A DNA stretch of 64,000 nt from Lysinibacillus xylanilyticus (GTDB taxonomy: Bacteria > Bacillota > Bacilli > Bacillales_A > Planococcaceae). The stretch is from contig NZ_MDDN01000003.1 of assembly GCF_001708185.1 (NCBI RefSeq), positions 1 to 64,000 of the forward strand. The letters run 5' to 3'. The stretch's first letter is position 1, and each line of letters begins with the position of its first letter. A program made the translations under genes and the position numbers. Shown here in pieces: positions 10,628-61,218 of the stretch. The notes beneath the pieces are model-generated. The model saw only the letters and a program-made list of their open reading frames with translations. It was not told the DNA's origin and made no database searches.

Positions 10628-10735
10628 ATGGGAAATAAATTACTAAAGGCAAGTGATTTATCAGAAGAAGTTAAAAAAATGAATGCAGATGCTAAAGAAA
10701 AATTCAAACAGGGTATGTTTGTGAAAATACTTTAA
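10628..10735 (+). CDS. 35-codon ORF after the HD gene
   Basis: MGNKLLKASDLSEEVKKMNA and on to FVKIL. It begins one base after the HD gene stop and is charged and helix-forming. There is no separate ribosome site. It may be a small coupled gene or a truncated N-terminus of a lost gene. Confidence 0.3.
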   Translation: MGNKLLKASDLSEEVKKMNADAKEKFKQGMFVKIL

Positions 10736-10740
10736 TTTTC

Positions 10741-10811
10741 TCGATAAATCACAAAAAAGTTTCGATAAATTAACAATATTAGTCGATAAATTCACGAGTT
10801 TTCTCGATAAA
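10741..10811. repeat. 21-bp phased array of TCGATAAA (4 units)
   Basis: The 8-base core TCGATAAA occurs at 10741, 10762, 10783 and 10804, exactly 21 bp apart each time, with unrelated AT-rich spacers. The array lies between convergent genes, just before a terminator. The spacing equals two helical turns. Confidence 0.95.
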
Positions 10812-10821
10812 CGAAAGAGAA

Positions 10822-10850
10822 GGGGCTGTCTACTGGCAGCACCTTTTTTT
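10822..10850 (+). terminator. terminator after the HD operon
   Basis: GGGGCTGTC and GGCAGCACC form an imperfect hairpin followed by seven T residues. Confidence 0.7.
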
Positions 10851-33090: not shown

Positions 33091-33103
33091 ATGAAGATTG
33101 AAG

Positions 33104-33482
33104 CGATGGATAGAAAAGCCAGAGCGATGGATTGAAGAGGTAAAAAGACAGACAGAACCTGCAAAGTGATGGATAAAATCAGAGCGACTGAATGATGAGG
33201 TGGGGCGATGGATAGAAAGGCCAGAGCGCGGAAAGAAAGGTCAGAGCGATGGAAAGAACAGACCAAACGACGGATAGAAGAGCCAAAATCGTGGATAGAA
33301 GAGCAAAAGTCGTGGATAGAACCCTTAAAGTCGCGGATAAAAAGGCCAAAGTGACGGAAAGAAATGAGAGCGACGGAAAGAAAGGCCAGAGCGACGGAAA
33401 GAACAGGTCAAACGACGGAAAGAACAGGTCAAACGACGGAAAGAACCCTCAGAGCGACGGAAAGAACACGCCAAACGACGGA
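33104..33482. repeat. 21-bp phased array of CGAYGGA (about 19 units)
   Basis: Cores of the form CGATGGA, CGTGGA, CGCGGA or CGACGGA occur at 33104, 33125, 33167, 33206, 33227, 33247, 33268, 33290, 33311, 33332, 33352, 33371, 33392, 33413, 33434, 33455 and 33476, mostly 21 bp apart. Units on the left are degenerate, those on the right nearly perfect (CGACGGAAAGAA). Open frames across it in both strands are by-products. It begins just after the thyA terminator. Confidence 0.93.
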
Positions 33483-33635
33483 AAGAACCCTCAAAGCACA
33501 AGATAAAATGCCAAAAGAATAAGCCAAATACCAAATTCTCTAGCACTTTATAAGACGGATGTTTTAATTTATGAAATTTTTTCCGATATAAGTTTTAAAC
33601 TGGAAATGGTTTATAAAAATGGAGAGGTGAGTGGT

Positions 33636-43181: not shown

Positions 43182-43373
43182 ATGTATTCCTCCCTTAGAT
43201 TTTTATATATGGCAATCTATTTATTATATCAGTCTTTATTAAACTAATTGTCGAGCGTGAATATAAGCAATTTTTACAAGGTGTGATCGCGTATTAAAAC
43301 AGGCAAAGAAACTGTGCAATGTTTGTAAATAACTTACAGGTAAAGGTGGTTTCTCACGCTGGGCAGGGAAATA

Positions 43374-43463
43374 CCCGCGGAAACAGAACAAATACCCGCG
43401 ATTGGGGAGAGAATATCCGCGTAAGAGGAGCAAATATCCGCGCGAAACAGGAGAATACCCGCG
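43374..43463. repeat. 21-bp phased array of (C/T)CCGCG (5 units)
   Basis: AATA(C/T)CCGCG-type units have their core at 43374, 43395, 43416, 43437 and 43458, exactly 21 bp apart; a degenerate sixth (ACGCG) is near 43477. Spacers are purine-rich and not conserved. It lies between two minus-strand genes. Confidence 0.95.
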
Positions 43464-43556
43464 GGAGCAGAGTAAAACGCGCAATCAGTCGAATCTTGCA
43501 TATATCACAAAAAACAGGACATGCATATAAAACCATGTCCTGTTTTATTCTAAGAA

Positions 43557-53832: not shown

Positions 53833-54312
53833 ATGATTTCTTTAATAGTGGCACATGATACGAATTATGTGATTGGATATGAAAATGGTATGCCGTGGCA
53901 TTTGCCTGGGGATTTACAATATTTTAAGGATAAAACGATGGGGAAGCCAATGATCATGGGACGAAAAACATTCGAATCCATCGGTAGACCGCTTCCAGGG
54001 CGTCGTAATATTGTTATTACTCGTGATGAAAACTATCATGCGGATGGGATTGAAGTGGTGACAAGTGTAGAGGATGCCCTCGCTCTTGCTGGAGATGTTC
54101 CAGAAATTATGATTATTGGTGGCGAGCAAATTTTCCGCTTATCCATGGAAATCGCCGATCGCCTATACATTACAAAAATCAATCATTCCTTTAATGGGGA
54201 TACATATTTCCCAAACTACGAACAGGATTTTGTGGAAATATCCTCAGAAGAGCCTGTGACAGCAAAAGAAGGCTATACATTCCAATATCAGATTTTTGAA
54301 CGTAAAAACTAA
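53833..54312 (+). CDS. dfrA: dihydrofolate reductase
   Basis: A 159-residue enzyme that reduces dihydrofolate with NADPH. VIGYENGMPWHLPGDLQYFK holds the Met20 loop and substrate-binding Trp and Asp/Glu positions; MIMGRKTFESIG and VMIIGGEQIF-type IMIIGGEQIFRL bind NADPH. Length is normal. GGAGGGAC precedes the ATG. In B. subtilis dfrA follows the thymidylate synthase gene; here thyA is elsewhere. Confidence 0.97.
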   Translation: MISLIVAHDTNYVIGYENGMPWHLPGDLQYFKDKTMGKPMIMGRKTFESIGRPLPGRRNIVITRDENYHADGIEVVTSVEDALALAGDVPEIMIIGGEQIFRLSMEIADRLYITKINHSFNGDTYFPNYEQDFVEISSEEPVTAKEGYTFQYQIFERKN

Positions 54313-54512: not shown

Positions 54513-54631
54513 TGACGGATGAACTTTTAAGCGATGAATAGAGCTACCGAAACGACGGATAGAAAAGTCAAAGTGACGGAAAGAGCGGAAAGAGTCACCG
54601 AAGCGACAGATAGAAATATCGAAATGCCGGA
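54513..54631. repeat. degenerate 21-bp phased array of CGACGGA
   Basis: Cores (TGACGGA, CGATGAA, CGACGGA, TGACGGA, CGACAGA, TGCCGGA) at 54513, 54532, 54553, 54574, 54604 and 54625. Steps are 19, 21, 21, 30 and 21 bp. It is a decayed relative of the arrays at 33104 and 59791. Confidence 0.75.
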
Positions 54632-54746
54632 TAGTTCCTGAGGGCAATCGATGAGATTTTTTACTGCTTAACATTCCAACAATTACATTCAAAAGAGGGG
54701 GGACAACTGTGAGGAAAATAACATTGGCAAATGGAAAAAGGTAGAA

Positions 54747-58769: not shown

Positions 58770-59303
58770 ATGGCAAAGCAATTCGCAACATTTGCAGGTG
58801 GATGTTTTTGGTGTATGGTCAAGCCCTTCGATGAAACACCTGGCATTGAATCAGTGATTTCAGGTTATACAGGTGGACATGTTATCAATCCAACATATGA
58901 GCAAGTTTGCTCTGAAACGACGGGGCATATTGAAGCGGTTCAAATTACGTTTGATGATGAGTATTATTCGTACGAGCAATTACTTGCGACATTTTGGACA
59001 ATCATTGATCCAACAGATGCAGGTGGACAATTTTATGATCGCGGGGAGTCCTACACAACTGCAATTTTTTATCACAATGAAGAGCAACGCGAATTAGCAG
59101 AACGTTCTAAGGCAGATTTACAGGCATCTGGTAAGTTCGATAAGCCCATTGCAGTAAAAATTTTACCAGCTAGTACGTTTTACCCAGCTGAAGACTATCA
59201 TCAATATTATTATAAGAAAAATCCAATGCATTACGAGCGCTATGCTGTCGGTTCTGGTCGCAAAGCGTTTCAGGAGCAACACTGGGGGCAAAAAAATGAA
59301 TAA
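58770..59303 (+). CDS. msrA: peptide methionine-(S)-S-oxide reductase
   Basis: A 177-residue repair enzyme that reduces the S epimer of methionine sulfoxide. The catalytic Cys is in [10 protein letters not shown] (GCFWC), with [15 protein letters not shown] and [10 protein letters not shown] also conserved. AAGGAGTGAA precedes the ATG. The stop overlaps the start of msrB by eight bases. Confidence 0.95.
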
Positions 59304-59724
59304 AGAACAACGCTTAAAAGAATTAACAGACATGCAGTATTATGTGACCCAAGAAAATGGCACAGAGCCACCATTCCGCAACGAATATGATAAACACTTT
59401 GAAGAAGGTATTTATGTAGATATCGTTTCAGGCAAGCCATTGTTTAGTTCCTTTGATAAATTCGATTCAGGTTGTGGGTGGCCTGCATTTGCAAAGCCAA
59501 TTGAACAGAAAGAAGTCACAGAGCATTTCGATACATCACATGGAATGCGTCGTGTAGAGGTTCGAAGCAGTGAAGCAGATTCTCATTTAGGACATGTTTT
59601 CCCTGATGGACCAAGTGAACGTGGTGGCTTACGCTATTGTATTAACTCCGCTGCACTTCGCTTTGTACCAAAAGAAGATTTAGAAAAAGATGGCTATGTA
59701 GAATATCTTTCATTATTTAAATAA
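59296..59724 (+). CDS. msrB: peptide methionine-(R)-S-oxide reductase
   Basis: A 142-residue partner of MsrA acting on the R epimer. The catalytic Cys lies in [13 protein letters not shown], and [12 protein letters not shown] and [12 protein letters not shown] are family motifs. The zinc-binding CxxC pairs of some MsrB proteins are absent. ATG 59296 lies inside the end of msrA, so the pair is translationally coupled. Confidence 0.95.
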
Positions 59725-59727
59725 GAC

Positions 59728-59767
59728 AAACTCCTAGCAGGATTATATCGTGCTAGGAGTTTTTTTA
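59728..59767 (+). terminator. msrAB operon terminator
   Basis: AAACTCCTAGCA and TGCTAGGAGTTT pair perfectly over 12 bp, followed by T residues. Confidence 0.93.
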
Positions 59768-59790
59768 CTGTTTTAAAATTGTTTCAAAAG

Positions 59791-60437
59791 CGACGGGAAG
59801 AGCGCTCGAAACGACGGAAAGAACAACTGAAACGACGGAAAGAACAACGGAAGCGACGGAAAGAGTCCTCGAAACGACGGAAAGAACAACGGAAGCGACG
59901 GATAGAGTCATCGAAACGACGGAAGAACAAGCAAGCGACGGAAAAAGCCCTCGAACCGACGGAAAGAACAACTGAAGCGACGGAAAGAGTCATCGAAACG
60001 ACGGAAGAACAATCAAGAGACGGAAAGAGCCCTCGAACCGACGGAAAGAACAACTGAAGCGACGGAAAGAGTCGTCGAAAAGACGGAAGAACAATCAAGC
60101 GACGGAAAGAGCCCTCGAATCGACGGAAAGAACAACTGAAGCGACGGAAAGAGTCGTCGAAAAGACGGAAGAACAATCAAGCGACGGAAAAAGCCCTCGA
60201 ACCGACGGAAAGAACAACTGAAGCGACGGAAAGAGTCGTCGAACCGACGGAAGAACAACCAAGCGACGGAAAGAGCCCTCGAAACGACGGAAAGAACAAC
60301 TGAAGCGACGGATAGAGTCATCGAAACGACGGAAGAACAAGCAAGCGACGGAAAAAGCCCTCGAACCGACGGAAAAAACAACTGAAGCGACGGATAGAGT
60401 CATCGAAACGACGGATAAACTCGTCAAACTGATGGAT
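59791..60437. repeat. 21-bp phased CGACGGA array (32 units) with 82-bp higher-order repeat
   Basis: The core CGACGGA (a few AGACGGA, TGATGGA) begins at 59791, 59812, 59833, 59854, 59875, 59896, 59917, 59936, 59957, 59978, 59999, 60018 and so on to 60430. Steps are 21 bp with a 19-bp unit every fourth. The block of 21+21+21+19 = 82 bp starts at 59936, 60018, 60100, 60182, 60264 and 60346. Spacers alternate (AAGAACAACTGAAG, AAGAGTCATCGAAA, AGAACAATCAAG, AAGAGCCCTCGAAC). Long ORFs in several frames here are by-products. Confidence 0.97.
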
Positions 60438-60462
60438 AGAACGTCACAATTGATTAGAAATA

Positions 60463-61206
60463 TTAAATGATTGAACTAGCAATTCTAAATCCGATATCAT
60501 CAATAAAGAAATCAGGCATACTCTTACGTCGACAAGTAGCTCCACATCCACGTTCTTCTTCAGCCCAACTGCCTCCTCGAATTATTCGGTAATTACCAAA
60601 TATCTCTTCATCGTATAAGTCCCAGCACCACTCCCAAACATTTCCTATCATGTCGTACAAGCCCCATTCATTAGGTGTTTTCTCACCAACTTTGTGTACA
60701 TGTTCGTTAGAATTATCTTTATACCAAGCAATGTCATCAATAGTACCATAGCGATATCCTGTTGAATTTGCTTTACATGCATATTGCCATTCAGCATCGG
60801 TCGGTAATCGAAAACCATTAGAACTCGGATTGCATACAACTGATTTACTTTTCTTATCACAATCGTAAAACTTATCATAGCCTAGAGCATCAGACAATGA
60901 ATTACAAAAGTTCACAGCATCTATCCATGAAACATTAACAATTGGTTTTTGATCTTTTGATGTTAAAAAACTCTTCCCCATAATAATCGAATAAAATTCT
61001 TCTGTTACAGTATATTTGGCAAGATAAAATGGCTTTATCTCAACATTCCAAATAACCTCTTTTAAATTTTTTCTTATACCCGGCATTCCAAATTTATAGT
61101 TTGAACTAATCCATTTCTGCTCGTTTCGAAAATCTCGTAATTGGATTTCTCCTTCAGGAATATATACCATTAATTCTTTTAAGTAATGATTTAAGTTCGT
61201 TATCAT
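60463..61206 (-). CDS. SUMF1/formylglycine-generating-type protein
   Basis: A 247-residue protein of the FGE-sulfatase fold. Hallmarks: MVYIPEGEIQLRDF, FYLAKYTVTEEFY, VNVSWIDAVNFCNSLS, GFRLPTDAEWQYACK, NEWGLYDMIGNVWEWCWD and RIIRGGSW with a final DDIGFRIA. The two active-site cysteines of true formylglycine-generating enzymes are not clearly placed, so a non-catalytic or other role is possible. ATG 61206 follows GGAGAG; no sulfatase gene is near. Confidence 0.87.
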   Translation of the reverse strand: MITNLNHYLKELMVYIPEGEIQLRDFRNEQKWISSNYKFGMPGIRKNLKEVIWNVEIKPFYLAKYTVTEEFYSIIMGKSFLTSKDQKPIVNVSWIDAVNFCNSLSDALGYDKFYDCDKKSKSVVCNPSSNGFRLPTDAEWQYACKANSTGYRYGTIDDIAWYKDNSNEHVHKVGEKTPNEWGLYDMIGNVWEWCWDLYDEEIFGNYRIIRGGSWAEEERGCGATCRRKSMPDFFIDDIGFRIASSII

Positions 61207-61218
61207 AGTTCTCTCCAT

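Follow-up and report, generated by a model that had tools for sequence, protein, structure and literature searches.

The window analysed here, a stretch of 64,000 nucleotides of Lysinibacillus xylanilyticus (contig NZ_MDDN01000003.1), carries near its end msrA (PMSR domain, 58770-59303) and msrB (SelR domain, 59296..59724, + strand, start codon chosen by eye), followed by the intrinsic terminator of msrAB (59730..59766, + strand, from hairpin scores, with the stem at about 59730-59761). The first core of a tandem array begins about 24 nt past the end of the T tract of this terminator, and the array occupies 59790..60449 on the + strand. On its other side lies a convergent gene with an FGE-sulfatase domain (60463..61218, - strand), whose stop codon at 60463 is about 14 nt from the last array unit. 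Genes were called as longest ORFs and not taken from annotation, and terminators by a simple hairpin-plus-T test. An earlier note on this DNA had placed the array between convergent genes and outside their terminators. The array does sit behind the msrB terminator, but no terminator of the convergent gene's own was seen in the gap separating the two; a consensus scan of both strands likewise gave none, a weak negative since it also missed the obvious msrB hairpin.

The array belongs to what we call family 1, with the core GYGACGGAWAGAA. As had been read from the letters alone, it comprises 32 units, counted from 59790/59791 to about 60437, and its 31 spacings are 25 of 21 bp and six of 19 bp. 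The 82-bp higher-order repeat (21+21+21+19) proposed in the same note is real: the six 19-bp units (segment 59916..60344, + strand) begin at 59916, 59998, 60080, 60162, 60244 and 60326, in steps of exactly 82 bp. Self-identity of the array, which averages 0.32 over lags 1-199, rises to 0.85 at lag 82, to 0.82 at lag 164 and to 0.56 at lag 21, in agreement with the expected autocorrelation at 82 and 21 bp. Each unit consists of a conserved core (approximately AGYGACGGAWAGAA) and a variable tail, and CGACGGA occurs 36 times in the window versus 2.05 expected from shuffles, 27 of these occurrences falling within the array. The judgement that the repeat encodes nothing credible also holds, and a coding repeat is ruled out, since the frame is lost with each 82-bp block and three ORFs of the array match no Pfam family. 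At gathering score, Rfam gave no match in the array, the sole match in the whole window being a cobalamin riboswitch (RF00174, 45822-46006). An assembly artefact is unlikely because G006 and G014, relatives each assembled almost whole in a single contig, hold dozens of arrays.

A second family 1 array, more decayed, lies behind the thyA terminator (33103..33495, + strand; thyA is coding up to 33051), and a third, short one of 5 units is found downstream of dfrA (53833-54312) at 54531..54644 on the + strand, with a candidate terminator 177 nt before 54531. A mini-array of a second family, five units of AATAYCCGCG with four 21-bp spacings, is located at 43351..43499 (+ strand); its orientation matches that of the other window arrays, and both its flanking genes are on the - strand. 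Four units of a different 21-bp repeat (TCGATAAATT...) were noticed at 10723-10828, beside an apparent hairpin with a T tract and between convergent genes.

The window array is one copy of a dispersed multi-locus chromosomal element of Lysinibacillus, which the earlier note had missed. The genome to which the window belongs (G000) contains 554 adjacent core pairs versus none for the reversed pattern, and the stretches of it that were read hold 40 groups of at least 3 units versus 4 for the reversed motif; two 3-unit groups among the 40 (L041, L123) are irregular. Spacings within the groups are 21 bp in 625 cases, 19 bp in 118, and 20 and 18 bp in 12 each. A search in related genomes, an idea of the same note, was positive: among 31 relatives of the same genus, 15 exceed twice their control count with 13 or more core pairs, 12 have 1-9 pairs and 4 have none, so species without or nearly without arrays exist in the genus. 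G006 has 989 family 1 core pairs, and L. sphaericus 2362 has 20 by exact patterns, whereas family 1 BLAST gave no match there. As 40 of 49 first-look candidates in G006 and 40 of 50 in G000 were scored, some arrays were missed. Of 60 stretches returned by an exact scan of the GTGACGGA form in one genome per species (84,980 species), 46 are named Lysinibacillus; the remaining 14, all single or double matches, come from about nine unrelated records, four from one Binatia MAG. GC-rich 21-bp GTGACGGAG repeats seen in a Candidatus Binatia MAG (L113:338-443) are probably unrelated. The 647-bp window array has no match in either the plasmid or the phage collection, and an origin as plasmid or phage cargo is rejected on this ground.

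An unprompted count of octamers biased to the leading strand in 400 kb of G006 gave ATACCCGC (52 to 2) and TACCCGCG (49 to 1), both of which stem from two arrays with another core, AATACCCGCG, mostly in units of 21 and 19 bp. The pattern of this second family is present in 18 of 32 genomes of the genus, the other 14 having no pair, and the spacings in 20 arrays examined are 416 of 21 bp, 68 of 19, 9 of 18 and 7 of 20. Family 2 follows the same rules as family 1 in placement, strand and spacing. The two meet in the G006 array behind the superoxide dismutase gene (Sod_Fe_N in the own-genome orthologue), where both cores stand in one register, and comparison of the 20 family 2 sites with 127 family 1 arrays revealed one G006 site that holds family 1 in another species (L333, L093). 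Other cores exist as well: G023 and G029 have no family 1 pair but 55 and 47 TCGCCGATA pairs, nearly all at 21 bp, and the msrB site of G007, G023 and G029 carries short repeats of other cores (L189, L199, L200). Among single observations, a TCGCCGATA-type array of 65 units (L301, G017:C17) has an unusual 18/20/21-bp spacing pattern and a co-oriented gene upstream. Short TCGCTGATAAA-type arrays with 20-21 bp spacing were seen at L139:16590-16725 and L062:5139-5333, the latter between divergent genes and not behind a terminator. By eye, AATATCCGCG of family 2 is similar to the reverse complement of the family 1 core, a lead only.

Arrays are found predominantly behind co-oriented genes. For 37 own-genome arrays of at least 4 units, an upstream gene is visible in 34 cases and co-oriented in 33; a hairpin with a T tract stands between stop codon and array in 28 of these 33, and the distance from terminator to first unit is usually 10-80 nt (around 30) and once 177. 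Likewise, the upstream gene is co-oriented for 37 of 43 arrays in named Lysinibacillus records (at least 4 units), for 36 of 38 in G006 (at least 5 units, in regions picked from BLAST hits for both flank and strand counts) and for 17 of 20 family 2 arrays, namely those with a fetched locus, taken strongest first. The upstream gene is not co-oriented in the remaining 6, 2 and 3 cases, respectively, and some, not all, of these opposed genes resemble short spurious ORFs. Genes downstream of arrays have either orientation.

The orientation of arrays also follows the replication fork. In G006 (5.49 Mb), the 79 BLAST rows switch strand once: those as far as 2.63 Mb are all + and those from 2.89 Mb onward all -, while GC skew is positive in 10 sampled stretches up to 2.52 Mb and negative in 10 from 3.00 Mb. 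Every one of the 38 G006 arrays with 5 or more units is on the leading strand; in 400 kb sampled as background, 253 of 350 genes are leading and so are 56 of 84 terminators (binomial P 2e-7, Fisher P 1e-5). For G014, where the GC skew of fetched pieces is consistent with the assumed arms, 44 of 49 rows are leading; the other five represent one array (442837-444482) on the lagging strand behind a lagging, co-oriented gene, at a place where local GC skew confirms that + leads. The skew of L. sphaericus 2362 turns at 1.50-1.71 Mb and 3.80-4.01 Mb, and core pairs at its five sites (+ at 0.87, 1.01, 1.04 and 4.53 Mb, - at 1.66 Mb) are all leading, the 1.66 Mb site being near a turning point. Family 2 behaves in the same way, with 23 of 24 BLAST rows leading in G006 and 25 of 26 in G014, and one weak lagging row in each (372152 and 359019, respectively). 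At L261 in G006, a leading array has an upstream neighbour of opposite orientation. Fork orientation and gene orientation are thus strong rules with few exceptions and are not fully separable. The leading strand is purine-rich in own-genome units (A 0.41, G 0.34).

Mean unit spacing is 20.60 bp in G000, 20.67 bp in G006 and 20.60 bp in family 2, so the cores would share one helix face at about 10.3 bp per turn and not at 10.5. The best-aligning helical repeat, averaged per array, is 10.29 in G000 (24 arrays), 10.30 in G006 (29 arrays) and 10.30 in family 2 (12 arrays), for arrays with at least two 19-bp spacings and periods of 10.0-10.8, a best period that largely restates mean spacing. Phase coherence exceeds that of reordered spacings with combined P of 5e-10, 2e-15 and 3e-4 for the three sets, values inflated by the fact that regular spacing of the 19s is partly a by-product of higher-order duplication; single arrays reach p<0.05 in 9 of 24, 17 of 29 and 4 of 12 cases. 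The resultant length R of the window array is 0.92 at 10.27 bp per turn versus 0.31 at 10.5. Among arrays with 12 or more units, best periods span 10.11 to 10.50, and R at 10.5 averages 0.35 and 0.27. These R values rule out exact 10.5-bp phasing for the window array and on average. Of the exact two-turn phasing on one face of the helix claimed by the earlier note, the 21/19-bp rhythm and the single face have stood, while the fit to 10.5 has to be replaced by one to about 10.3. Nor is 10.3 universal, since several species have arrays built purely of 21-bp units, and these fit 10.5. The short spacings, moreover, are 19 bp, whereas pure phasing would favour 20.

Base composition follows a similar rhythm. 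Family 1 has strong G/C and A power at 10.3 bp (29 and 36 arrays), as has family 2 at 10.34-10.36 bp (16 arrays). For A, the 10.3-bp component is equal to or stronger than the 20.6-bp one in family 1 and weaker in family 2; in family 1, G by itself contributes little near 10.3 bp. When the consensus alone is considered, the 10.3-bp G/C component is not significant for family 1 (permutation p 0.31) and has p 0.010 for family 2.

Mismatch between higher-order copies is unevenly distributed along the unit. In family 1 (290 pairs), 0.7-1.7% of comparisons disagree at GGA, compared with 15-19% across the five final tail positions; in family 2 (244 pairs), the figures are 0.4-6.6% for the core and 5-28% for the tail. 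Anchoring the first copy on the motif (family 1) or on AATA (family 2) introduces a mild bias to conserved cores. Sites, in turn, are shared between species: for 24 of 32 own-genome arrays the upstream gene is common with a G006 array, and for 17 the downstream gene also matches. Tail agreement is 0.534 at the 24 orthologous sites, 0.477-0.490 at different loci and 0.494 as expected from composition; core agreement is 0.87-0.89 everywhere, about composition level. The best tail match among 39 is the own orthologue for only 6 of the 24 orthologous arrays. Given shared sites and drifted tails, the arrays look old and inherited in place, without detectable recent copying between loci; recent copying is unsupported in that tails of different loci are no closer than composition. 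Vertical inheritance of each array is suggested by a modest difference of averages (0.534 versus 0.477).

What might such arrays do? Taken together, they suggest a DNA-structure element rather than a gene. Our tentative first choice, which may well be right but falls short of being probable, is a phased tandem DNA site behind the terminators of leading-strand genes, a putative protein-bound or wrapped architectural element; constraint on core, phase, strand and place favours an element of this kind acting at the DNA level. A candidate protein, either a nucleoid-associated protein or a topoisomerase-type wrapping enzyme, would touch the core once per two turns and would bend or wrap array DNA along one face, and the wrapped array might form a topological or architectural site at the ends of co-directional transcription units. 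From the G/C and A/T modulation at about 10.3 bp, seen in both families, it seems that shape and phase persist as the exact sequence turns over. The chromosome-organisation reading already offered in the earlier note fits the coherence, the leading-strand polarity and the conservation of sites and cores, but it lacked the rule of gene and fork orientation, and binding is putative.

A somewhat unlikely, still serious alternative is a selfish or mutational minisatellite with no host function, which would arise by slippage or template switching in one fork orientation only, would persist in the tolerant space from the terminator to the next promoter, and would keep its core as needed for amplification. 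Strict fork orientation could then be a bias of expansion or of stability. Turnover among relatives, where copy number and presence differ greatly, speaks for it: family 1 pairs are absent in 4 of 31 relatives and family 2 pairs in 14 of 32 genomes, and surveys of 30 loci per gene from 32 genomes found arrays at the msrB site in 14 of 30 genomes and at the thyA site in 8 of 30. In G022 (L187) and G028 (L184) one unit is left at the post-msrB site, compared with dozens in relatives, and this single unit is either a collapsed array or an ancestral seed; such lone-unit remnants, like the higher-order duplications, are also what a minisatellite would leave. Since arrays come and go among genomes, no single locus is essential. 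However, the 24 of 32 upstream genes common with G006 arrays, together with tails drifted almost to composition level, point to old residents with a constrained core, and two families with different cores have one 21/19 geometry and a fit to about 10.3 bp per turn.

We regard as improbable an element acting in the transcript, in which read-through array RNA titrates an RNA-binding protein such as CsrA or antisense RNA serves as a Rho-type terminator. Sense RNA would be unstructured with GGA once per unit, and antisense RNA would be pyrimidine-rich and stop transcription from the convergent side, in line with the RNA preferences of CsrA and Rho. Compared with 20 shuffles, both strands of the window array indeed fold less well (z +2.15 and +5.65), and GGA is the best-kept part of family 1; the conserved core of family 2, however, has no GGA, though one often comes next (G 0.55, A 0.69 at the next positions). 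Of 25 convergent genes that face an array, 7 have their own terminator in the gap from the stop codon to the array; in ordinary convergent gaps, 122 of 204 gene ends have one, a contrast that is suggestive of arrays as terminators for the genes facing them. Yet the matter is ambiguous, as 17 of 25, close to the ordinary rate, have one when terminators inside or beyond the array are counted. Helical phase is needless for RNA, and an RNA role is made less likely by the strong terminators that precede arrays and by arrays without a co-oriented upstream gene (L261, window 43351). A polar signal for a DNA motor, like the KOPS/SRS octamers of FtsK/SpoIIIE or Chi of AddAB but concentrated in tandem, would agree with the near-perfect origin-to-terminus polarity and the purine-rich leading strand, but is very improbable because the core changes between and within genomes, different cores coexisting in one genome unlike the target of a motor with one reading domain, while 400 kb of G006 contain few core words outside arrays, and those with little strand bias (GACGGATA 4 versus 1, CGACGGAA 3 versus 2), and BLAST rows, by eye, do not crowd toward the terminus.

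Known repeat systems resemble the arrays in part. A CRISPR array combines repeats of about 24-40 bp with unique spacers and has cas genes close by, whereas the window array has 21/19-bp units with a core of about 14 nt, and its immediate neighbours are msrA, msrB and the FGE-sulfatase gene. Plasmid iterons are direct repeats with protein sites of about 20 bp at a spacing of about two turns, on one DNA face; the arrays differ from them in occupying dozens of chromosomal loci behind terminators, and the window array lies next to msrAB and the FGE-sulfatase gene and not to rep. KOPS/SRS octamers are dispersed as single copies. The arrays share with them leading-strand polarity on both replichores (38/38 in G006, 44/49 rows in G014, 5/5 in L. 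sphaericus 2362), KOPS being oriented from origin to terminus on each chromosome arm according to passages in PMC2680272 and PMC5869595, and differ as tandem arrays with changing cores differ from short octamers; in the 400 kb of G006, the array core words do not behave like one leading-biased octamer spread in single copies.

REP elements are described in passages of PMC2817692 as palindromes in alternating orientation, associated with a tyrosine transposase. Like the REP/BIME-2 elements of enterobacteria, the arrays are many-copy extragenic repeats, and their modulation resembles the phased 10-bp G/C variation that passages of PMC6379681 give for the E. coli gyrase motif, along with an enrichment of gyrase sites in BIME-2 and behind highly transcribed operons; this resemblance is no evidence of gyrase at the arrays. 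The arrays are direct, of single orientation and fork-polar, and palindromic alternating units are not what we see, all units having one orientation and RNA folding worse than shuffles. STAR elements of Staphylococcus aureus, in the passages of PMC3532100, have a 14-bp GC-rich motif, T(G/A/T)TGTTG(G/T)GGCCC(C/A), in repeats of roughly 50 nt, successive motifs being separated by 40 bp or more. The likeness lies in intergenic direct repeats with a short conserved motif, locus-specific variable spacers, variable copy number and no assigned function (PMC3532100). In contrast, the Lysinibacillus arrays have 21/19-bp units, follow terminators, keep to the leading strand and use two cores with one geometry; the main text of that source is without the words 'orientation' and 'terminator', and its passages give no strand rule. 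Unit consensus and 21/19 spacing place the arrays outside STAR, with its 14-bp motif and gaps of at least 40 bp. A limited literature search, over titles and the starts of abstracts, found no description of such arrays and is too narrow to show them undescribed.

Bacterial repeat classes are usually recognised by sequence, while the present arrays preserve position, fork polarity and helical phase from species to species and with either of two cores. This raises the question whether DNA-shape elements mark the joint direction of replication and transcription, or whether fork-linked amplification alone imitates them. We think it rather unlikely that the arrays represent a fork-polar element class with inherited and selected geometry, in which the core is replaceable without loss of layout and a putative protein or topoisomerase reads shape and phase. 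If this were true, an element read by shape and phase could serve as a programmable topological boundary at the ends of leading-strand transcription units. The arrays are also relevant to genome assembly, as contig ends of the draft genome carry 6 of the 40 own-genome groups. Finally, the same genome contains another intergenic tandem repeat, of 35-37 bp and GCTGACGCTTCGCTTTCGCACAGATAAAACA-like, at L143:16402-16570, L153:5479-5624, L157:14126-14472 and L158:10185-10409.
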